Shown here in pieces: positions 237-9,939 of a DNA stretch of 64,000 nt. How positions within the stretch are numbered: position 1 is the first letter of the stretch; each line of letters begins with the position of its first letter. A model generated the notes under the pieces. The model ran no database searches and was not told the DNA's origin. It saw nothing but the letters and a program-made list of their open reading frames with translations. Source of the stretch: Terracoccus sp. 273MFTsu3.1 (lineage in GTDB: Bacteria; Actinomycetota; Actinomycetes; Actinomycetales; Dermatophilaceae); NCBI RefSeq assembly GCF_000383675.1, contig NZ_KB911821.1, positions 620,001-684,000 on the forward strand, read 5' to 3'. The translations under genes were made by a program, and so were the position numbers.

Positions 237-1409
237 TCACTTCGTCATGGGGATCTCGGTCGGGGTCGCTGGCTCGATGCCGGTGCCGGCCCCGCCACCG
301 CCCGTCGAGCCGGGCACCTCGGCCGGTGCCGTCGCGTCGGGCGCCGGCGGCACGACCGTGCCGTCCGACGACACCGAGCCGTTCAGGTCGGGGCCGGGGA
401 TCCGCGGGCTCCACTGCTCGACGAGCTCGACGAGCGATGACGCGTCGGCGGACTCGAGGTTGGTGCCGAGCACGGCCGGTGCGCAGTCCGGGTCGACGGT
501 GAGGCGCACGGGCGGCCCGACGGCATACGTGAGCAGGAGCGTGAACCGCCCGTTGCCCGGGTTGTCCCGGCCCTGGCACGTCTGCCCCGTCGGCCTCGTC
601 GGCAGGGCGCGCAGCGCCGCGACGACCTCGGCAGACTGCGTGGCGTCCAGCGGCGTCGCCTTCACCGTGCCGTCAGCCGCGTCACGGCACACGGTCGCCG
701 TCGGGTCGCCCTCGGGGGCCAGGCTCCGGTCGTCGCCGAGGCGTCCCCACGACGTCCGGTTGCACGCGACGACGTCGGCGGAAGGAGGGGTGCGCGTGCC
801 GAACATCCTTTCGAGCACGACCGCAGGACCGGGACCCGACCGGAAGTCGCCGTTCGTCGACGTCGAGCAGGCGTTCGCGTCGGCCAGCGCGCTGACCCAT
901 ACGACGGCGTCGCCGTAGGACGCACCGACCACGTATGCCGTCTCGTTGCCGGCCATCAACGTGCACACCCGCCGGGCCCCGGAGTCGCGCGGCGACCACG
1001 TCAGGGCCTCGACGAGCTCGACCCGCTGGCCGTCGCTCGCCACGGTGCGCTTCGCGAGGCGGAACGGGGGCTGGATCGGCTTCATGATGTCGACGACGGG
1101 ATAGGCGCACACGACGAGGGAGGTCGGGTCGCGGTCGGGCAGCAGGCGAGCGGCGCCGTCGACGCCCTGCGGCTTCTGCGGCACGGGCACCGGCTTGTCC
1201 ACGGCCGCGGCGGCGACCGACTCGGGGCACTGCAGGGCCCCGTCGGCCTCCACGGGCTGGCTGGTGACCGGCCGGACCGGGCCGGAGGCGAGCGACGTCT
1301 CCCCCGGCTGGGGCGTGGTGGCCGTGCCGCACGCGACGAGCGCGAATGCGGCGGCTCCGGTCAGCAGGACGCGGCAGACGGCGTACGGGCGGGGCCTTCG
1401 GGACTCCAT
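237..1409 (-). CDS. Putative secreted lipoprotein of unknown function
   Basis: 390 residues. The N-terminus is a lipoprotein signal peptide: basic start, hydrophobic stretch at residues 13-26 and a lipobox LVAC with the lipidated cysteine at position 27, so the mature protein should sit on the outer face of the membrane. The body contains several further cysteines, which could form disulfides outside the cell. The last 50 residues are rich in Pro, Thr and Gly. I recognise no domain. The ATG is preceded by a GAAGGAG ribosome site. It ends facing the palindrome pair and runs in the same direction as the next three genes. Confidence 0.8.
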   Translation of the reverse strand: MESRRPRPYAVCRVLLTGAAAFALVACGTATTPQPGETSLASGPVRPVTSQPVEADGALQCPESVAAAAVDKPVPVPQKPQGVDGAARLLPDRDPTSLVVCAYPVVDIMKPIQPPFRLAKRTVASDGQRVELVEALTWSPRDSGARRVCTLMAGNETAYVVGASYGDAVVWVSALADANACSTSTNGDFRSGPGPAVVLERMFGTRTPPSADVVACNRTSWGRLGDDRSLAPEGDPTATVCRDAADGTVKATPLDATQSAEVVAALRALPTRPTGQTCQGRDNPGNGRFTLLLTYAVGPPVRLTVDPDCAPAVLGTNLESADASSLVELVEQWSPRIPGPDLNGSVSSDGTVVPPAPDATAPAEVPGSTGGGGAGTGIEPATPTEIPMTK

Positions 1410-1478
1410 CGGGCGCTCCTTCGTCGGGGATCCGTCACCGGGAAGGACACCTGGGCGCGCGCTTTCGTTGCAGCCGCG

Positions 1479-2099
1479 TCAGCCAGCGGGAGGCGGCGGG
1501 CCCGGCTGGTCCGGACTCGACGGCTGCGACGGCTGCGACGGCTGGATCGGCGGCGACGTCGGGGTGACCGGGGCGATGCCGATGCCCGCCCGGCCACCGA
1601 CGTCGATCCCCGCGTCGGCGAGGATCTGGCGACCCTGCTGGGCGAACTTGTGCTCGCAGAAGACCTCGTAGCGCGTCGCGACGACCTGGCTGACCGACGA
1701 GAAGTCGCGTGCTCCGCGGGTGAAGGCGTAGCCGGCGAGCGACCAGATCAGGCCGAAGACGGCGCCGTAGAGGGCGGTGGAGAGCAGCAGGGTCAACGGG
1801 TTCGAGGGACGCGAGAAGAGCGAGAGGATCAGACCGACGAAGAGTCCGAGCCACACTCCGGAGAGCAGACCGCCGAGCGCGACACGTCCCCACGTGAGGC
1901 GCGCGGTGACCCGCTCCATCTGCTTGAGGTCGGTGCCGACGATGAGGCAGTTCTCGACCGGGAACTGGTTGTCGGACAGCGTGTCGACGGCCTTCTGCGC
2001 GTCGACGTACTGCTCGAACACACCCAGCGACATGGGGTACTCCAGGGAGAGTGTCGCGAATCCCTGGCGTCCCCCCGGACCCTTCGGTTGCAGGCTCAT
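1479..2099 (-). CDS. Small membrane protein with general-stress (YflT/GSP17M-like) N-terminus
   Basis: 206 residues. Residues 20-65 (LEYPMSLGVFEQYVDAQKAVDTL ... VGTDLKQMERV) resemble the nucleotide-binding-like domain of general stress proteins of the YflT type. Two hydrophobic helices follow, at about 72-95 and 101-126. A short soluble segment then leads to a Pro/Ser/Gln-rich tail (about 180-206) encoded by short DNA repeats. This layout is common in actinobacteria, but no activity is known to me. The gene is 40 bases downstream of the acyl-CoA dehydrogenase gene on the same strand. Confidence 0.75.
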   Translation of the reverse strand: MSLQPKGPGGRQGFATLSLEYPMSLGVFEQYVDAQKAVDTLSDNQFPVENCLIVGTDLKQMERVTARLTWGRVALGGLLSGVWLGLFVGLILSLFSRPSNPLTLLLSTALYGAVFGLIWSLAGYAFTRGARDFSSVSQVVATRYEVFCEHKFAQQGRQILADAGIDVGGRAGIGIAPVTPTSPPIQPSQPSQPSSPDQPGPPPPAG

Positions 2100-2139
2100 A
2101 CGTCCATCCTCGCATCCCCGGCTCGGCGCAGAGGGGCCC

Positions 2140-3339
2140 TCAGGCCTTGAGCTTGTAGTCCTCGACGAGGCGGCGGCCGATGATCATCCGCTGGATGTCG
2201 GCCGTGCCCTCGCCGATGAGCAGCATCGGCGCCTCGCGGTAGAGGCGCTCGATCTCGTACTCCTTGGAGTAGCCGTAGCCGCCGTGGATGCGGAAGCTGT
2301 CCTCGACGACCTGCGAGCAGTACTCGGACGCAAGGTACTTCGCCATGCCGGCCTCGAGGTCGTTGCGCTGACCCGAGTCCTTCTTGCGGGCCGCCTTGAC
2401 CATCATTTCGTGCGCGGCCTCGACCTTGACGGCCATGTCGGCGAGGCGGAAGAGAACGGCCTGGTGGTCGACGATCTTCTTGCCGAAGGTCTCGCGCTGC
2501 TGGGCGTAGGAGACGCCGAGCTCGAAAGCCCTTCTCGCGACACCACATCCGCGAGCAGCGACGTTGACGCGGCCGACCTCGACGCCGTCCATCATCTGGT
2601 AGAAGCCCTTGCCCGGCTCGCCGCCGAGGATTTGCGCGTCGGTCGTGCGGTGCCCGTCGAAGATGAGCTCGGTCGTGTCGACGCCCTTGTAGCCCATCTT
2701 GTCGATCTTGCCGGGAACCGTGACGCCCTGGGCGGTCTCGCCGAAGCCCGACTCCTTGTCGACGAGGAAGGTCGTCATGTTCTTGTAGACGGAGTCGGCG
2801 CCCGTGTCGGTCTTGACGAGGACGGCGACGAGGTTGGCCGAGCCACCGTTGGTCAGCCACATCTTCTGCCCGGTGATGGACCACTCGCCGTCGTCGCCCT
2901 TGACGGCCTTGGTCTTGATGGCGGCCACGTCCGAACCGCAGCCCGGCTCGCTCATCGAGAACGCGCCCCGGATCTCGCCCGTCGCCATCTTCGGCAGGTA
3001 GTGCTGCTTCTGCTCCTCGGTCCCGTGCTGGAGCACCATGTAGGCGACGATGAAGTGGGTGTTGATGATGCCGCTGACGCTCATCCAGCCGCGCGCGATC
3101 TCCTCGACGCACAGGGCGTAGGTCAGCAGGGACTCACCGAGGCCGCCGTACTCCTCGGGGATCATCAGCCCGAAGATCCCCATCTCCTTCATGCCGTCGA
3201 CGATGGCCTGGGGGTACTCGTCCTTGTGCTCGAGCTCCATGGCGACAGGGATGATCTGCTCGTCGACGAACTCACGGACGAGCTTGATCAGCTCGGTCTG
3301 CTCCTCGGTGAGGCCGTCGGTCTGCTGCAGTCGGGACAT
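2140..3339 (-). CDS. Acyl-CoA dehydrogenase
   Basis: 399 residues, the usual length for this FAD flavoprotein family, which oxidises acyl-CoA to trans-2-enoyl-CoA and passes electrons to ETF. Visible signatures are YGGLG (64-68), FSMSEPGCGSD (127-137), the flavin loop ITGQKMWLTNGG (155-166) and the C-terminal GEGTADIQRMIIGR. Glu377 in GEGT matches the catalytic base of medium- and short-chain enzymes. No ETF or other beta-oxidation gene is adjacent, so the acyl substrate (straight or branched chain) cannot be told from context. Confidence 0.92.
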   Translation of the reverse strand: MSRLQQTDGLTEEQTELIKLVREFVDEQIIPVAMELEHKDEYPQAIVDGMKEMGIFGLMIPEEYGGLGESLLTYALCVEEIARGWMSVSGIINTHFIVAYMVLQHGTEEQKQHYLPKMATGEIRGAFSMSEPGCGSDVAAIKTKAVKGDDGEWSITGQKMWLTNGGSANLVAVLVKTDTGADSVYKNMTTFLVDKESGFGETAQGVTVPGKIDKMGYKGVDTTELIFDGHRTTDAQILGGEPGKGFYQMMDGVEVGRVNVAARGCGVARRAFELGVSYAQQRETFGKKIVDHQAVLFRLADMAVKVEAAHEMMVKAARKKDSGQRNDLEAGMAKYLASEYCSQVVEDSFRIHGGYGYSKEYEIERLYREAPMLLIGEGTADIQRMIIGRRLVEDYKLKA

Positions 3340-3478
3340 GCTCGGATCGCCACCTTGCGTCTGGGCTCTCGGACAACTGCGACCGAGTATGCCGTCGCGC
3401 CGGGCACGCGGTCAGTGCGCCCGCGTGTGAGTGTCGACACCTGTGTCCTCGGTCACCGGAGATCGTCGGAGCCACCAC

Positions 3479-4351
3479 TCACCACAGCTGTCCGAAGGAC
3501 AGCTTCTTGGCCTTGACCGGTCCCTCGAGCGTCGAGCGCTGGCTGAAGCCGCCCTCCTCGAGCCCGGCCGTCACGCTGCGGAGCAGCTCGCTGCGGGTCG
3601 CCGTCGGGCTCGCCTTGATGGCCTCGAGGAAGAAGTGGGTGAAGGCCCCGTTGGAGCGCCCGTCGAACGTCGCGTCCCTCGCGGTCTGGTCGGGACGGCA
3701 CGCCGAGTGGACGACCGCCCGCAGTGGCACGGACCGGTAGGGGCGGCGGCGCACGTCGGCCTCTCGGCGCGGGCCGGCCGGAGCAAGTCGCCGCGGCAGC
3801 CCCGTCTGCACGGGGCTCGGGAGGAAGCGTGGCCGCCCCTGGCCAGGGAGACCGAGACCGGAGCCGTCGCGGTCGTCGTCAGCGTCCCTGAGACCGGTGC
3901 CGCTGTGGCACGTGTCGAGCAGCACCTCGAGCAGGACCCCGCTCGGCACGCTGCCCATGAGGTCGCGGAGCTCGTCGTCGAGGATGATGGTGTCGCGGTC
4001 CCAGCCGTCGGCACCGACCCGCAGGTCGGCGCAGGCCAGCGCCTCGTCGAGCCCGTCGGGCTCGTCGTCGACGTCGCCGGGCAGGTTCGGCACCTGGACT
4101 CCGTGGGTCGAGATGCTGAAGACCACCGTGTCGCCCGGACGGGACGTGGAGACGAGGCGGGTGAGCCGCGACCACACGTCCTTCCTGGTCGCCGTGCCAT
4201 CACACAGCACGACGACGTCGGAGACCCCGAAGTGCAGCGCAGTGAGCGCCTCGGCCACGTCATGGGCGTCGTTGACACACCCTCGCAACCAGTCCGTCTC
4301 GCGCAGCGAGGCGAACTCGTTGATGCCGACGCACAACGCAGACCGCGTCAC
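3479..4351 (-). CDS. Caspase-like cysteine protease (peptidase C14 family), copy B
   Basis: 290 residues, GTG start. It begins ALCVGINEF, the typical first strand of bacterial caspase-fold enzymes. The catalytic His is in SISTHG (His83) and the Cys in LLDTCHSG (Cys148). The aspartate two residues before the cysteine is the position that gives metacaspases their preference for Lys/Arg at P1 (family knowledge). No signal peptide or membrane helix, so it is likely cytosolic. It is a tandem duplicate of the gene 22 bases upstream: the two 3' ends are nearly identical for about 200 bp, while the segment after the cysteine (residues 155-215) has drifted. Probably the last gene of the CHAT-hydrolase operon. 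Confidence 0.88.
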   Translation of the reverse strand: MTRSALCVGINEFASLRETDWLRGCVNDAHDVAEALTALHFGVSDVVVLCDGTATRKDVWSRLTRLVSTSRPGDTVVFSISTHGVQVPNLPGDVDDEPDGLDEALACADLRVGADGWDRDTIILDDELRDLMGSVPSGVLLEVLLDTCHSGTGLRDADDDRDGSGLGLPGQGRPRFLPSPVQTGLPRRLAPAGPRREADVRRRPYRSVPLRAVVHSACRPDQTARDATFDGRSNGAFTHFFLEAIKASPTATRSELLRSVTAGLEEGGFSQRSTLEGPVKAKKLSFGQLW

Positions 4352-4373
4352 GATGCGGCCAGGGCCGGTTCGG

Positions 4374-5249
4374 TCACCACAGCTGTCCGAAGGCGACCTT
4401 CTTGGCCTTGACCGGTCCCTCGAGCGTCGAGCGCTGGCTGAAGTCGCCGTCCTTGAGCCCGGCCGTCACGCTGCGGAGCAGCTCGGTGCGGGTCGCCGTC
4501 GGGCTGGCCTTCATGGCCTTGAGGAAGAGGTACGTGAAGGCCCCGTTGGAGCGGCCGTCGAACGTCGCGTCCGACGCCGTCTGGTTGGGCTTGCACGCCG
4601 CGAAGAGGACGGGCTTCGAGGCCGTGGTGCGGCTCTTCGTCAGCTCGACGAGCGCCTTGCGGTCGACGGTGCGCACCGGCGTGACGGCGCGGATCGACCG
4701 GGCCTGGTCGAGTCCGCGACGCGTGGGTGGCGGCAGGTAGCGCGGCTTGCGGCCGAGGAGCTGCGCCTGCAGGATCTCGTCGAGGTCCTTGAGGCCGGTG
4801 CCGCTGTGGCACGTGTCGAGCAGCACCTCGAGCAGGACGCCTGCGGGCACGCGGGAAAAGAGGTCGCGCAGCTCGTCGTCGACGATGACGGTGTCGCGGT
4901 CCCACTGGTCGCCCTTCTGGCGGATGTCGTGGCACGCGAAGGCCTCGTCGAGACCGTCCGGCTCGTCGTCGCCACCGGGCTCGTTGGGCACCTGCGTGCC
5001 GTGGCTGGAGAAGGTGAAGATCAGGTGGTCGCCGGCCTTCGCGGTGTCGACGAGCGTCGTCAGCGCTGCCATGACGGCCTTCTTCGTCGCGCCGGCATCG
5101 GTGAGCACCGTCGTCGCGCGCGCAGTGAAGCCGAGCGGCCGCAGCGCCTTGGCGATGTCGTTCGCGTCGTTGACGCAGCCGTTGAGCCAGCTCGTCTGCG
5201 GCAGCGACTCGAACTCGTTGATCCCCACGCACAGAGCCCTGCTTGCCAT
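4374..5249 (-). CDS. Caspase-like cysteine protease (peptidase C14 family), copy A
   Basis: 291 residues. The ATG at 5249 is chosen because GAAGGAAGG lies just upstream and the protein then starts MASRALCVGINEF, collinear with copy B; the frame extends further upstream only by antisense-like sequence. The dyad is His83 (FSSHG) and Cys147 (LLDTCHSG), with the acidic residue at Cys-2 typical of metacaspase S1 pockets. The C-terminal FSQRSTLEGP segment is shared with copy B. It is a single-domain enzyme with no prodomain. It starts 61 bases after the CHAT protein gene ends, which suggests co-transcription and work in the same proteolytic pathway. Confidence 0.88.
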   Translation of the reverse strand: MASRALCVGINEFESLPQTSWLNGCVNDANDIAKALRPLGFTARATTVLTDAGATKKAVMAALTTLVDTAKAGDHLIFTFSSHGTQVPNEPGGDDEPDGLDEAFACHDIRQKGDQWDRDTVIVDDELRDLFSRVPAGVLLEVLLDTCHSGTGLKDLDEILQAQLLGRKPRYLPPPTRRGLDQARSIRAVTPVRTVDRKALVELTKSRTTASKPVLFAACKPNQTASDATFDGRSNGAFTYLFLKAMKASPTATRTELLRSVTAGLKDGDFSQRSTLEGPVKAKKVAFGQLW

Positions 5250-5310
5250 GGCCGTTCCTTCCTTCTCGGAACCCCTCGGGTGAGCGGGTTCGACTGGGGT
5301 GTATGCCGTT

Positions 5311-8300
5311 TCACACTGTCTCGAGGACCGCGTCGGGTCTCGCGTACACGACGTAGGCGAGCCAGGTCGGGTCGTCCGCGTCCCGCGCTGCCGCCCGGGC
5401 AAGAGCACTCGCCCGGGACATCTGGGTGCCCTTGAGCAGCTCCTCGTACAACGTCTCGACGAAGACCCGAGCCGGCTCCTCCTGGACCGACCACAGGCAC
5501 GAGACGAAGGCCGAGGCGCCGGCGTCGAGGAACGCCTTGGCGAAGCCGCCAACCGTCGTGAAGAGCTCGCCGGACCGTCCGGTCTGGCAGGCGTTGAGCA
5601 CGACGATGGGACCGACGCTGTCCGGTCCGGTCCAGTCGAGGTTCTGGGAGACGTCGGTCGAGCTGAGGTACTGCTCGCGCACGGTGGTGCCGCGCCGCTG
5701 GCCCTTGAGCAGCACTTTCGCCTCGGCGATGTCCTCGGAACGTGCCGCCCCGTGGCCCGAGAAGTGGAGCAGGTCGAAGCCGCCGCCGCGCAGGAGCTTC
5801 TCGACGCCGCTCGGGGTGGCCGTCACGGGCTTGGCGCCGAACCGGTCCTTGAGGTAGCCGGCCTCGGCGACACCGACGTCGTTCTTGAACATCGGGTTGG
5901 CGTAGACGGGACAGATCGACCGTGCGTGGCCCCGGCGCACGCGGACGGCCCGGGGAGGGAAGCTGCCGAGCTGCCAGCGCACGAGCCCACCGGAGGCGAG
6001 GAAGCGTGGCGTCGTGCCGCGCTTGCCGCGAGCGGGCTTGAGGTGGACGAGCTCCCACGGCACGAACGGCTCGTCGGTGTAGACGATGAGGTCGTGCACG
6101 AGGTCGCGGTGCTCCCAGAGGTAGGCCTGCATGTCCTCGGGGAAGAACTGGTCGAAGAGCATCGTGCCGGTGTTCTGCAGCTGCGACATCCGCTGGCGCG
6201 GTGTCAGGTCGGGATCCTTGATGACCCGCTCCACCTCGGCGATCCGTTCGCGCACGAACTCGTCACGCCCGAGGATCGGCGCCGACTCGAAGACCCGCTC
6301 GGGCTCGCCCGGCACGAGCCGGAGCGCGTAGCTGTAGACGCGCTCACCCGTGACGCGCCGGCACTCGACGATGTCGAGGCAGGGCAGGCCGTCGAGCTCC
6401 GGGGCGTCGATGCCCGTGTGGACGGTGGCGGTGACGGGCGTCGGGGCGACCATCCCCGCGGCGGCCGCCGTCGACTCGAGGGTGACGGTGGCGAGCGGCA
6501 CCCAGCCCTGCCGGAGGATGATGGACACGCGGACGGGCCCGGGCGCCAGGGCTCGCACCCGGAAGGTCAGCTCGCTGGCCCAGTCGCCGCTCGGCAGGCC
6601 GAAGACCTTGGCGTCCGTCTCGAGGACCTGCACGTTGTCCTTGGCGTAGACCTGCACGCTGATCGGGCGCTCCGCGTCGACGTGGAGCGTCCTGGACTCG
6701 TGGACCGTGCCCTCCGTCGGCGCCACCGCCTGTCGCGCGAGCCGGACCCGGACCGTCACGTCGGCACCCGGGGTGACCGTCGCAGGCATCTCCACCGCGA
6801 GCTCGGCCTCCGTCGTGCCCTCGAGAGGGCTCGTGGGTCCAGCGTTCGCGGGCTTCTCCCGGTCGCGGCGCGTCGCCTTCTTCGCCGTCGCCTTCTTCGC
6901 CGTCGCCTTCTCCGCCGTCGCCTTCTTCGCCGTCTTCCCCGTCGCCCTCCCGGCGGCCGTCCTCGCCGGCGGCTCCGCCCGGGGGCCGGTGGCGGGTCGC
7001 GCGGGCGGACGCGCATGGGTGCCGGGAGGCCTCGTCGCGGACGGCGGACGGGCGGCTGTCGGCGGTCGGGCGGCGGTGGTCGGCGCCTCCACCTCGGCCA
7101 TCTCGAGTCCACGCTCGTCACCACCACCGTCGGCGCCGAGGACCGGCCCCGCGGTCATCCACCCGGGCAGGTGAGCCTCCTCGTCCGACGCGCCGAGCCC
7201 GAGCGGCAGCCACTGCGAGATCGCACCGATGACCGGGAGCTGCGCGAAGTAGTTGACGTGGTGGACGACGTCGTTGGTGCCGAGGGCGAACGTGTCGCGC
7301 ACGTAGCCGCCGCTCGGCAGGCCGATCGCCGACATCGAGTCGGTGTCGACGACGAGGTCGTTGCGCCCCTTGAAGATCCCGTCGACGAAGCCCTCGGCGA
7401 GACGGACGGCGAGCTCGCGCGGGAACTCGGGCGGGTTGTGGTGGTCGTCGAAGAGCGACACGTGGAAGTCGGACGAGACGACGTACCAGCTCGTCCCGGG
7501 CCGGGGCTGGCCCGGCTGGTCCTCGTTGAGGGTCGTGACGAAGGGCCCGTCGGGCGTCATCGCGGCGAGACCGGGCACGCCGTCGTCGCCGGCGGCGTAC
7601 GACACGAGGTACTTCACGAGCGCGCCGACGCCACAAACGACACCGGTGACGACAGCCGCGAAGGGAGCTCCGCCGGGCACGAGGGACAGGCCGGCAGCGG
7701 TCACCATGACGAGGTTCGTGTAGAGGTCGACGAGGTCGTGCCAGCGCTCGGGGTCGGCGAGGTGGGTGCCGCCGTTGGTGGAGGCCACGAAGACGATGGA
7801 GTCGACGGCGACGCGCAGTCCCGCACCCGGCAGCACCGACTCGACGAAGGACCTCGTGACCAGCCCGCCGCGGCTGTGCGTGATGACGTCGATGACGAGC
7901 TCGCCGTCGTGGGGCGCGAGCAGGGCGAGCAGGTCGCGCGCGTTGCGCTCCGGGTCGACGCTGAGCGTTCGGTGGTCGAAGCCGATGACGGCGTCGTACG
8001 CCGACACGAGGGTGTCGACGAAGCCCTCCGCGCCGGGCGTGACAGCGAGGGCCCCGAAGGCGCTGGTGGTCGACGAGAACGTGCCGTGGACGAGGAGCAG
8101 GACCCGTGCCGCCCGGTCGGTGGGGAGGCCCACCTCCGCGAGCGAGCCGACCGGCTTCCACGCGTCGAGCGTTCCCCCCGTCACGTGGACGAGCCCGGTG
8201 CGCACGCCCGACTCGAGTCGCTCGACGACCTTGTCGACGATGACGGGTGCGGCGAAGCGCAGCACGATCGCCTGGAGGACGCCGTGGGCCAGGTCCCCGA

Positions 8301-8778
8301 GCAGCCCGCGGTCAGCCGGTCCCGCACCAGGTCGCTCGAGGCCCCGCGACCGCGGTCGCGGACGCCGCGGGCGCTCCGGTTGCACCGACAGGGCGAACGA
8401 CACGGTGCGGGGACCGGGGTCGATCGACCGCGTGCGTTCGGCGGCATCGACCGGCAGGTGCCACGAGTAGACCCCGTCGCGCTCGAGCAGGACGACGGCG
8501 TCGTTGCCGGCCGGCACGTCGACGTCGAGCTTCACGGTGCCCGCCCTGTTGGCCGGTGCGGGACCACCCAGGTCGCGAGATCGCTGTGGTGTCAGGTCGA
8601 TCCGGTCGACCACGACGAAGTCGTCGGTGCGCAGGGCCTCGACGAGGGCCGCCCGCTCAGCCGCCCGGCGGTCACCCGAGGGCAGGTCCCTGTCGGCGCG
8701 GTCGGTCGCGGCGGACGCGTCGTAGCCGCGGGGCGCGCGCACGCGCACCGCTCCCCCGCCGAAGGACGCGGACGGCAT
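5311..8778 (-). CDS. Alpha/beta-hydrolase fused to CHAT caspase-fold protease
   Basis: 1155 residues, cytosolic (no signal or membrane segment). Residues 1-200 are not recognised. About 215-530 is a lipase-like alpha/beta-hydrolase: oxyanion region LLLVHGTFSS (227-236), nucleophile elbow THSRGG (Ser302), and later Asp and His candidates in GRNDLVVD and VVHHVNY. About 560-640 is a disordered linker rich in Ala, Pro and Lys with AKKAT repeats. A beta-rich segment (655-775) follows. The C-terminal part (about 870-1155) is a CHAT domain with LLHFSGHG (His1009) and VVLNACQTG (Cys1064). CHAT proteases act in bacterial immunity and cell-death circuits such as TPR-CHAT/Craspase and gasdermin activation (known for the class); the role here is inferred. 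ATG start preceded by GGAGGGAG; first gene of the operon with the two caspase-like genes. Confidence 0.9.
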   Translation of the reverse strand: MPSASFGGGAVRVRAPRGYDASAATDRADRDLPSGDRRAAERAALVEALRTDDFVVVDRIDLTPQRSRDLGGPAPANRAGTVKLDVDVPAGNDAVVLLERDGVYSWHLPVDAAERTRSIDPGPRTVSFALSVQPERPRRPRPRSRGLERPGAGPADRGLLGDLAHGVLQAIVLRFAAPVIVDKVVERLESGVRTGLVHVTGGTLDAWKPVGSLAEVGLPTDRAARVLLLVHGTFSSTTSAFGALAVTPGAEGFVDTLVSAYDAVIGFDHRTLSVDPERNARDLLALLAPHDGELVIDVITHSRGGLVTRSFVESVLPGAGLRVAVDSIVFVASTNGGTHLADPERWHDLVDLYTNLVMVTAAGLSLVPGGAPFAAVVTGVVCGVGALVKYLVSYAAGDDGVPGLAAMTPDGPFVTTLNEDQPGQPRPGTSWYVVSSDFHVSLFDDHHNPPEFPRELAVRLAEGFVDGIFKGRNDLVVDTDSMSAIGLPSGGYVRDTFALGTNDVVHHVNYFAQLPVIGAISQWLPLGLGASDEEAHLPGWMTAGPVLGADGGGDERGLEMAEVEAPTTAARPPTAARPPSATRPPGTHARPPARPATGPRAEPPARTAAGRATGKTAKKATAEKATAKKATAKKATRRDREKPANAGPTSPLEGTTEAELAVEMPATVTPGADVTVRVRLARQAVAPTEGTVHESRTLHVDAERPISVQVYAKDNVQVLETDAKVFGLPSGDWASELTFRVRALAPGPVRVSIILRQGWVPLATVTLESTAAAAGMVAPTPVTATVHTGIDAPELDGLPCLDIVECRRVTGERVYSYALRLVPGEPERVFESAPILGRDEFVRERIAEVERVIKDPDLTPRQRMSQLQNTGTMLFDQFFPEDMQAYLWEHRDLVHDLIVYTDEPFVPWELVHLKPARGKRGTTPRFLASGGLVRWQLGSFPPRAVRVRRGHARSICPVYANPMFKNDVGVAEAGYLKDRFGAKPVTATPSGVEKLLRGGGFDLLHFSGHGAARSEDIAEAKVLLKGQRRGTTVREQYLSSTDVSQNLDWTGPDSVGPIVVLNACQTGRSGELFTTVGGFAKAFLDAGASAFVSCLWSVQEEPARVFVETLYEELLKGTQMSRASALARAAARDADDPTWLAYVVYARPDAVLETV

Positions 8779-8974: not shown

Positions 8975-9085
8975 ATGACCATCACGGCCCCGGGCATGCC
9001 TGCCCACATCTCTTCTTCCTTGGAGTTCTCTTGTCATTCAACGCTTTTCACGACGACGACCTCGCGGTCGTCGACACCCGACTGA
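8975..9085 (+). CDS. Possible leader peptide ORF overlapping the RIO kinase start
   Basis: A 36-codon ATG frame with a strong ribosome site (AAGGAGGG, 5 bases upstream). It runs out of frame across the TTG start of the RIO kinase gene and stops 52 bases inside it. The peptide is Ser/Thr-rich and has no recognisable feature. Its good ribosome site and overlap could couple or attenuate translation of the kinase, whose own site (GGAG, TTG start) is weaker. It may equally be chance. Confidence 0.35.
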   Translation: MTITAPGMPAHISSSLEFSCHSTLFTTTTSRSSTPD

Positions 9086-9939
9086 CCGCTCGGCGCACCC
9101 TCGGCCTCGAGGACGAGCAGTACGCGGTCGACACCGACCCCGACGGCCCTCCCGAGGGTGACCGGTGGTCGAGCTGGGACGGAGCCACCCACGGCCCGAA
9201 GCCGCGCCCCGACTGGGTCATCACCGACCTCGGCGCCGTCGAGGCCGACCTCGGGGTGCTCAAGACCGGCAAGGAGGCCGACGTCCACCTCGTCCGACGG
9301 TGGGTGCCCGGATCCTCCGACCGGGACGTGCTCATGGCCGGGAAGCGCTACCGGTCGAGCAAGCACCGCATGTTCCACCGCGACTCGGGCTACCTCGAGG
9401 GCCGGCGCGTGCGGAAGTCGCGCGAGACGCGGGCCATGCTGACCCGCACCTCGTTCGGCAAGGAGCTGATCAGCGGTCTCTGGGCCTTCGCCGAGTTCGA
9501 GACGCTGGTCCGCCTCTGGCACGAGGGGCTGCCGGTGCCCTACCCGGTGCAGATGTCCGACGACGAGATGCTGATGGAGTTCATCGGCACGCCCGACGGG
9601 CAGGCCGCGCCACGGCTGGCGCAGGTGCGTCCGGACCCGGACCTGCTACCGGTGCTCTTCGAGCAGCTGCGCGAGGCGATGCTGCGGCTCGCCGAGCTCG
9701 GTTGGGCGCACGGCGACCTCTCCCCGTACAACGTGCTGCTCGAGGGCGAGGGGGACGACGCCCGGCTCGTCCTCATCGACTGGCCGCAGATCGTCGACGT
9801 CATCGGCAACCCGCACGGCCCGGAGTTCCTCGAGCGCGACACCCACAACATGTGTGAGTGGTTCACCCGTCGTGGGTATGCGGTCGACGAGGGCCTGCTC
9901 TTCGGTGACCTCATCGCGGCGGCGACGTCGCGGTGGTGA
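9031..9939 (+). CDS. RIO-type atypical serine/threonine kinase
   Basis: 302 residues. Kinase hallmarks are the RIO nucleotide loop TGKEADVHL (79-87), the invariant lysine in LMAGKRYR (Lys105), the catalytic loop HGDLSPYN (Asp229) and the metal-binding aspartate in LIDWPQ (Asp250). RIO1 kinases help mature the small ribosomal subunit in eukaryotes and archaea; in bacteria the substrate is generally unknown. The start is a TTG with GGAG 6 bases upstream. It is divergent from the CHAT operon across a 252-bp gap, and is followed by a 14-bp-stem terminator. Confidence 0.88.
   Translation: MSFNAFHDDDLAVVDTRLTARRTLGLEDEQYAVDTDPDGPPEGDRWSSWDGATHGPKPRPDWVITDLGAVEADLGVLKTGKEADVHLVRRWVPGSSDRDVLMAGKRYRSSKHRMFHRDSGYLEGRRVRKSRETRAMLTRTSFGKELISGLWAFAEFETLVRLWHEGLPVPYPVQMSDDEMLMEFIGTPDGQAAPRLAQVRPDPDLLPVLFEQLREAMLRLAELGWAHGDLSPYNVLLEGEGDDARLVLIDWPQIVDVIGNPHGPEFLERDTHNMCEWFTRRGYAVDEGLLFGDLIAAATSRW

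Follow-up and report, generated by a model that had tools for sequence, protein, structure and literature searches.

What use has a bacterium for a lipase-like hydrolase that is fused to one protease and encoded beside two others? The question is raised by an operon in the window analysed here, a 64,000-nucleotide stretch of Terracoccus sp. 273MFTsu3.1 (contig NZ_KB911821.1, positions 620,001–684,000). Its three minus-strand genes encode a large protein with an alpha/beta-hydrolase half and a CHAT half and two small Peptidase_C14 proteins (Pfam), caspase 1 and caspase 2. We consider it likely, with a probability of about 0.5, that the operon encodes a latent membrane-lipid hydrolase that is activated when a partner protease cuts the lipase loose. 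Four features suggest a protease-gated lipase: relatives exchange the protease partner, the hydrolase half is modelled with a lipase fold under a hydrophobic lid, its tether is predicted to be disordered, and certain Arg motifs go with the caspase. Inspection of the open reading frames confirmed the gene arrangement given in a preliminary description of the operon, with gaps of 61 bases between the hydrolase-CHAT and caspase 1 genes and 22 bases between the two caspase genes, as well as the intact Ser302 and His1009/Cys1064 of the large protein and the intact His/Cys dyads of both caspases.

Protease partners of the hydrolase

Twenty of 52 loci encoding homologues of the large protein (L017–L035 and L037) have a caspase immediately downstream or fused, and L104 adds one, giving 22 caspase-bearing loci with the window. 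A second caspase is present only in the window and its close relative L018, and the conserved unit is therefore the hydrolase-CHAT protein with one caspase, downstream or fused, and not the trio. The conservation anticipated in the preliminary description thus holds for the pair, found in the window and 21 other loci, but not for all three genes.

A single chain unites hydrolase, CHAT and caspase in L021 (1529 amino acids, aa) and L023 (1525 aa), and a caspase domain also occurs in two of the best 120 homologues, P0051 and P0067. P0067 and L023 are apparently one record. In Humibacillus xanthopallidus KV-663 (L031:9863-12649), the hydrolase is joined directly to the caspase without DUF7363 or CHAT, both of which are retained in L021 of the same species; judged by its domains, the caspase is the only protease partner that remains in L031. 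A profile of hydrolase-only members (best 120 of 130 proteins at E ≤ 1e-15; Pfam run on four M4 carriers) recovered fusions to the thermolysin-type Peptidase_M4 domain in 14 of these 120 proteins, including P0164, with an intact HELTH motif in 13 and DUF7362 listed in 13 of the 14. Visual inspection of the first 40 residues of the M4 fusions showed no signal peptide; no predictor was run. TCAD7 was detected in seven of the same 120 proteins and sits between hydrolase and DUF7363 in P0147 and P0151 (Pfam).

The seven strongest DUF7379 matches elsewhere in the phylum were also followed (L105–L111). A separate CHAT gene immediately precedes the hydrolase gene in L105, L106, L107 and L109, and a single chain in L110 combines hydrolase, CHAT and TPR-S. 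In L111, truncated by a contig edge, the opposite strand holds a CHAT gene and a weak caspase match; no CHAT partner was shown by L108. In Pseudomonas (L041, L065), the genes after hydrolase-CHAT encode an AAA ATPase and a NACHT protein with a sub-cut-off Trypsin_2 match; in Caulobacter (L039) they are Trypsin_2, AAA and OmpA genes, and in Bradyrhizobium (L044) a second CHAT gene precedes hydrolase-CHAT and a two-component pair follows it. The NACHT protein with the weak Trypsin_2 match in L065 (L065:9767-18535) may be this module's STAND sensor. The Bradyrhizobium row (L044:6939-15427) runs from the second CHAT gene through a gene for a 531-aa protein that Pfam does not match to hydrolase-CHAT and the genes for the response regulator and histidine kinase; judged by gene sizes, it is repeated in other Bradyrhizobium loci. 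Astacin-like genes with HExxHxxGxxH adjoin the hydrolase-only genes of L036 and L055. A protease neighbour was not seen in L042 (universal stress protein gene) or L051 (PAP2 and Ada/AlkA genes), L063 has a KAP NTPase and a weak CHAP match as neighbours, nothing was recognised in L061, and the next gene lies on the opposite strand in L038, L040, L050, L052, L054, L057, L059 and L064. On this domain and gene content, the hydrolase is constant among relatives and the protease varies: caspase, CHAT, M4, astacin-like or trypsin-like. Because relatives have the hydrolase joined either to caspase-like domains or to a protease unrelated to these, it is likely a dormant, membrane-damaging enzyme that a protease would activate.

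Catalytic residues, lid and tether

Conservation within the large protein was assessed in an alignment of its best 120 of 396 homologues at E ≤ 0.001 (counts in Table 1) and, as a second sample, in the 52 loci, where Ser302 and His507 are present in 52/52 and the CHAT dyad in 43/43 loci having CHAT. Since they are near-invariant across the 120 homologues, the catalytic residues are not there by chance, and the loss of such residues, which the preliminary description had named as evidence against itself, was not seen. Asp478 was considered as catalytic acid and rejected because it differs in 8/120 homologues; the acid was instead placed at Asp474 of an NDLVV motif. We take this motif to resemble the NDG motif of bacterial lipases. 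The hydrolase half has the nucleophile Ser, acid, His and HG oxyanion motif of lipase-type alpha/beta-hydrolases, and the model of the DUF7379 region matched lipase folds in the fold search. A lipase fold is modelled for this half, and lipid hydrolysis is predicted. DUF7362 modelled alone gave no clear fold match in the PDB. The lid contains the 19-residue stretch with the protein's highest hydrophobicity (Kyte–Doolittle 1.99); this value exceeds 1.6 in 96/120 homologues, and the lid is helical in the structure model. A linker of about 120 residues joins the hydrolase to the CHAT half and is predicted to be disordered, with a mean predicted local distance difference test (pLDDT) per ten residues of 28–54 as far as residue 650. 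The CHAT half has the His/Cys dyad of CHAT proteases, and its fold matches are Craspase TPR-CHAT and separase folds.

Both caspases have a His/Cys dyad with the D-x-C-H-S-G motif of metacaspase-like C14 proteins, and their best-scoring solved chains, with which both align best, are metacaspases. The Cys motif is present in 22/22 caspases listed and the His motif was placed in 21, the pattern leaving out L024. Both caspases of the window keep an Asp two places N-terminal of the catalytic Cys, a residue with a role in the S1 pocket of metacaspases. Metacaspases take Arg and Lys at P1 (PMC4357240), and by analogy with these relatives the window caspases are expected to cut after Arg or Lys.

Table 1. 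Features of the operon and of the genes bordering it (window positions; residue counts refer to the alignment of 120 homologues unless otherwise stated)
Feature	Position	Strand	Basis
Hydrolase-CHAT fusion, 1155 aa	5311..8778	-	open reading frame; Pfam; 396 homologues at E ≤ 0.001
N-terminal DUF7362, residues 8-175	8254..8757	-	Pfam
R-D-L, residues 30-32, low-confidence loop	8683..8691	-	model; motif counts
R-D-L, residues 68-70, loop between strands, pLDDT block 82	8569..8577	-	model; motif counts
R-S-I, residues 117-119	8422..8430	-	motif counts
R-G-L, residues 145-147	8338..8346	-	motif counts
R-G-L, residues 157-159	8302..8310	-	motif counts
DUF7379, alpha/beta-hydrolase core, residues 227-418	7525..8100	-	Pfam; lipase folds in fold search
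Ser302, predicted nucleophile	7873..7875	-	118/120; 52/52 loci
Hydrophobic helical lid, residues 343-393	7600..7752	-	hydrophobicity; model helices
Asp474 (NDLVV), predicted catalytic acid	7357..7359	-	120/120; 53/53 including window
His507, predicted catalytic His	7258..7260	-	120/120
Predicted disordered linker, residues 531-652	6823..7188	-	pLDDT
R-G-L, residues 556-558, linker, candidate processing site	7105..7113	-	motif counts
DUF7363, all-beta domain, residues 663-767	6478..6792	-	Pfam; strands in model
CHAT domain, residues 986-1132	5383..5823	-	Pfam; fold search
CHAT His1009	5752..5754	-	119/120
CHAT Cys1064	5587..5589	-	120/120
Caspase 1, metacaspase-like C14, 291 aa, His83/Cys147, conserved partner	4374..5249	-	Pfam; 21 other loci
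Caspase 2, C14, 290 aa, His83/Cys148, duplication	3479..4351	-	60% identity to caspase 1
RIO-domain kinase, upstream slot border, outside the system	9031..9939	+	Pfam
Acyl-CoA dehydrogenase, downstream slot border, outside the system	2140..3339	-	Pfam

A candidate recognition motif

The large protein carries short R-[DGES]-[LI] motifs, in its linker as well as in loops, that are candidate recognition sites for the caspase. The linker contains R-[DGE]-[LI] in 22 of 32 non-redundant members of the actinobacterial clade versus 2.6 expected (maximum 8 in 500 shuffles), and in 5 of 11 other members versus 3.7 expected by shuffling; gene context was looked up for 2 of the 32 clade members. An unbiased count of three-letter patterns has L.MA, R.L.M, DR.L and RGL among its top eight. 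Within the clade, 107/543 Arg residues in low-confidence model blocks start an R[DGES][LI] motif versus 135/2291 in confident blocks, and the respective numbers for the other 11 proteins are 16/311 and 32/694. Five loop segments together hold 1–7 motif copies (median 5) in the 21 caspase-bearing proteins and 0–4 (median 1) in the 32 caspase-less proteins, with zero copies in Streptomyces L038 and L040. The linker itself has a copy in 17/21 caspase-bearing proteins.

Competing readings, chromosomal slot and known systems

If the operon encodes a protease-gated lipase, a stress or invader signal would activate the CHAT half and/or the caspase, and the caspase would cut after the Arg of R-[DGES]-[LI] sites, both within the linker and within loops of the N-terminal domain. 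The released lipase would then open its hydrophobic lid and attack membrane lipids, by which the cell could be stopped or killed. The proposal of the preliminary description that the hydrolase is an effector controlled by proteolysis fits the conserved residues, the hydrolase-CHAT/caspase pair, the lipase fold and the partner exchange; membrane action, cell killing, the trigger and an involvement of phages are what we infer beyond these. More tentatively, the family may be a widespread bacterial pro-lipase with an exchangeable protease trigger, in which DUF7362-DUF7379 is fused to CHAT, caspase or thermolysin-type domains or stands beside astacin- or trypsin-type genes, and of which the actinobacterial form would kill the cell after its caspase has cut repeated R-[DG]-L tags.

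Several observations weigh against a protease-gated lipase. A downstream or fused caspase is lacking in 32/52 loci, 24 with CHAT in the chain and 8 with the hydrolase alone, and only two of the latter were seen to adjoin an astacin-like gene; Pfam scans of neighbouring genes gave partial coverage, at about a dozen loci. The M4 fusions are one small clade and therefore a single event. A linker copy of the motif is absent in 4/21 caspase-bearing proteins (L021, L027, L031, L033), caspase-less relatives have copies (four in L052, four in L057, three in L055), and a dibasic linker is not linked to caspases (12/20 versus 23/24). The motif had been seen before it was tested, the loop segments were picked with it in view, one of the five (64–76) is modelled confidently, and the members share ancestry. 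Because the pattern is post hoc, the segments were chosen and relatedness was partly removed, the enrichment is a lead and not proof. To our knowledge, an activity has been reported for no member of the family. P0085 and P0087 have lost Ser302 and retain the CHAT Cys, so that CHAT may serve a separate function. P0087 has lost the CHAT His too.

Proteolysis may even be the output, CHAT activating the caspase, which would cut other proteins such as an anti-sigma factor, with the hydrolase as lipid-binding or lipid-sensing input. This is rather doubtful, given that Ser302, Asp474 and His507 are nearly invariant, as in an enzyme, that L031 keeps hydrolase and caspase without CHAT, and that CHAT is missing from the chains of both the M4 fusions and the hydrolase-only members. 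It would agree with the CHAT Cys being kept in 120/120 homologues versus 118/120 for Ser302, with chain 8rot_B, which the CHAT half matches best by sequence in the PDB and whose entry names an anti-sigma factor, DdvA, in its title, and with the proteolytic cascade through which SAVED-CHAT works (PMC11229360). CHAT-caspase pairing is also a wider theme in this organism and thereby feeds the same alternative, the chief rival of a protease-gated lipase. Three of the five CHAT genes and four of the five C14 genes of the genome fall in such pairs, namely in the window, L099 (caspase then CHAT) and L100 (CHAT then caspase), and the latter two lack this hydrolase.

Two further alternatives depend on the chromosomal setting. 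Most family loci have the operon between the RIO kinase and acyl-CoA dehydrogenase genes. The RIO gene was found at E ≤ 1e-60 in 40/59 family genomes, and in the 20 of these examined at the slot the operon is present in five (genomes of already-named loci) and absent in 15. The border genes are 238–397 bases apart in eight of the 15, leaving an empty slot (L148–L153, L155, L156), and 982–3548 apart in six; in one genome the dehydrogenase lies outside the examined stretch. PADLOC assigned no model to nine flanking proteins except for one weak kinase match. Given the empty slots in relatives and the lack of flanking PADLOC defence models, the operon varies in presence at a stable chromosomal site and does not belong to a defence island; the clustering with defence genes considered in the preliminary description was not supported, the slot being fixed and beside housekeeping genes.

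This slot and the lack of defence genes found nearby weigh against a role in immunity. A dedicated antiphage abortive-infection system that senses a phage product is thus unlikely, the more so as no sensor was identified and PADLOC matched the two small proteins only to a generic caspase model and the large one to none, although the composition is like that of protease-activated defence, e.g. canu (PMC12799240), and of conflict systems (PMC7159879). The same setting would suit a housekeeping lipid or envelope enzyme in which proteolysis only matures or turns over the lipase for lipid remodelling or stress, as would the presence of DUF7362 in all genomes of the genus but one (8/9), which is 74% complete. 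We regard this as quite improbable, since DUF7362 is patchy, occurring in 22/186 family genomes and 10/53 genera, and the slot is empty in relatives. Elsewhere the hydrolase accompanies NACHT-trypsin, AAA, TPR-S and TCAD7 proteins, which we take to be the company of conflict systems. Of the 22 family genomes with DUF7362, 20 have a caspase and two are hydrolase-only (L036, L042); in the wider order, DUF7362 is above cut-off in just 2/248 genomes.

Known systems share parts of this composition, the nearest being the pairings of VMAP systems and canu. In vWA-MoxR (VMAP) conflict systems, a caspase domain always has a neighbouring alpha/beta-hydrolase gene, and joint operation was suggested computationally in 2020 (PMC7159879). 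The window likewise has a caspase-superfamily domain alongside an alpha/beta-hydrolase, but here fused to CHAT, and the likeness is drawn at the level of the alpha/beta-hydrolase. The VMAP gene content is absent, with neither MoxR nor vWA found among the ten window proteins scanned with Pfam. TCAD7 was matched (Pfam) only in relatives, and its link to VMAP ternary-complex systems is presumed from its Pfam name; the names TCAD7 and TPR-S are absent from the available text of that study. In canu (2025), a caspase activates a gated nuclease in phage defence (PMC12799240). As proposed here, a caspase-family protease stands beside an enzyme held inactive and activated by cleavage, but the canu effector is a metallo-beta-lactamase-type nuclease with shown activity, whereas the window has a lipase fold in the model and a predicted activity. 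The canu gene content was not found, Pfam detecting no metallo-beta-lactamase-type nuclease domain in the three proteins. The target in SAVED-CHAT is reportedly a caspase. Its CHAT protease acts within a proteolytic cascade (PMC11229360, PMC11417357); the operon differs in that its three proteins had no SAVED or CRISPR match (Pfam, PADLOC). The content of Craspase, TPR-CHAT (Csx29) with Cas7-11, is likewise absent, with no TPR match in the large protein (Pfam) and no cas gene among the ten scanned window proteins, and neither Pfam nor PADLOC matched any of the three proteins to a gasdermin model, as a gasdermin operon would call for. The propeptide form of the lipase BlEst2 (6WPX), which has inhibitory domains, shows 13% sequence identity.

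Bacterial protease-activated effectors include pores, the gasdermins. Protease-activated nucleases are known as well (PMC12799240), and alpha/beta-hydrolases are named among effector domains, as hydrolysing membrane lipids (PMC8195603). The CHAT fusion and protease exchange of this hydrolase family are not described in the available parts of PMC7159879, PMC8195603 and PMC12799240. A lipase released by a caspase or other protease would, if true, be a third output after pores and nucleases, parallel to protease-activated gasdermins and caspase-activated nucleases. It would give DUF7362, DUF7379 and DUF7363 a mechanism and a concrete motif open to mutation, and would place a death-type switch in a stable chromosomal slot outside a defence island.

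The host genome is near Terrabacter, as the large protein is 94–95% identical to its counterparts at loci of Terrabacter sp. Root85 and Ter38. Caspases 1 and 2 have 60% protein identity, and because 207 of the last 230 bases of their genes are identical nonetheless, the 3′ ends appear to have been recently duplicated or gene-converted. The CHAT-caspase pairs elsewhere in the genome (L099:5431-9345, L100:7139-11576) have other extra domains in place of this hydrolase, CBM9-like in L100.
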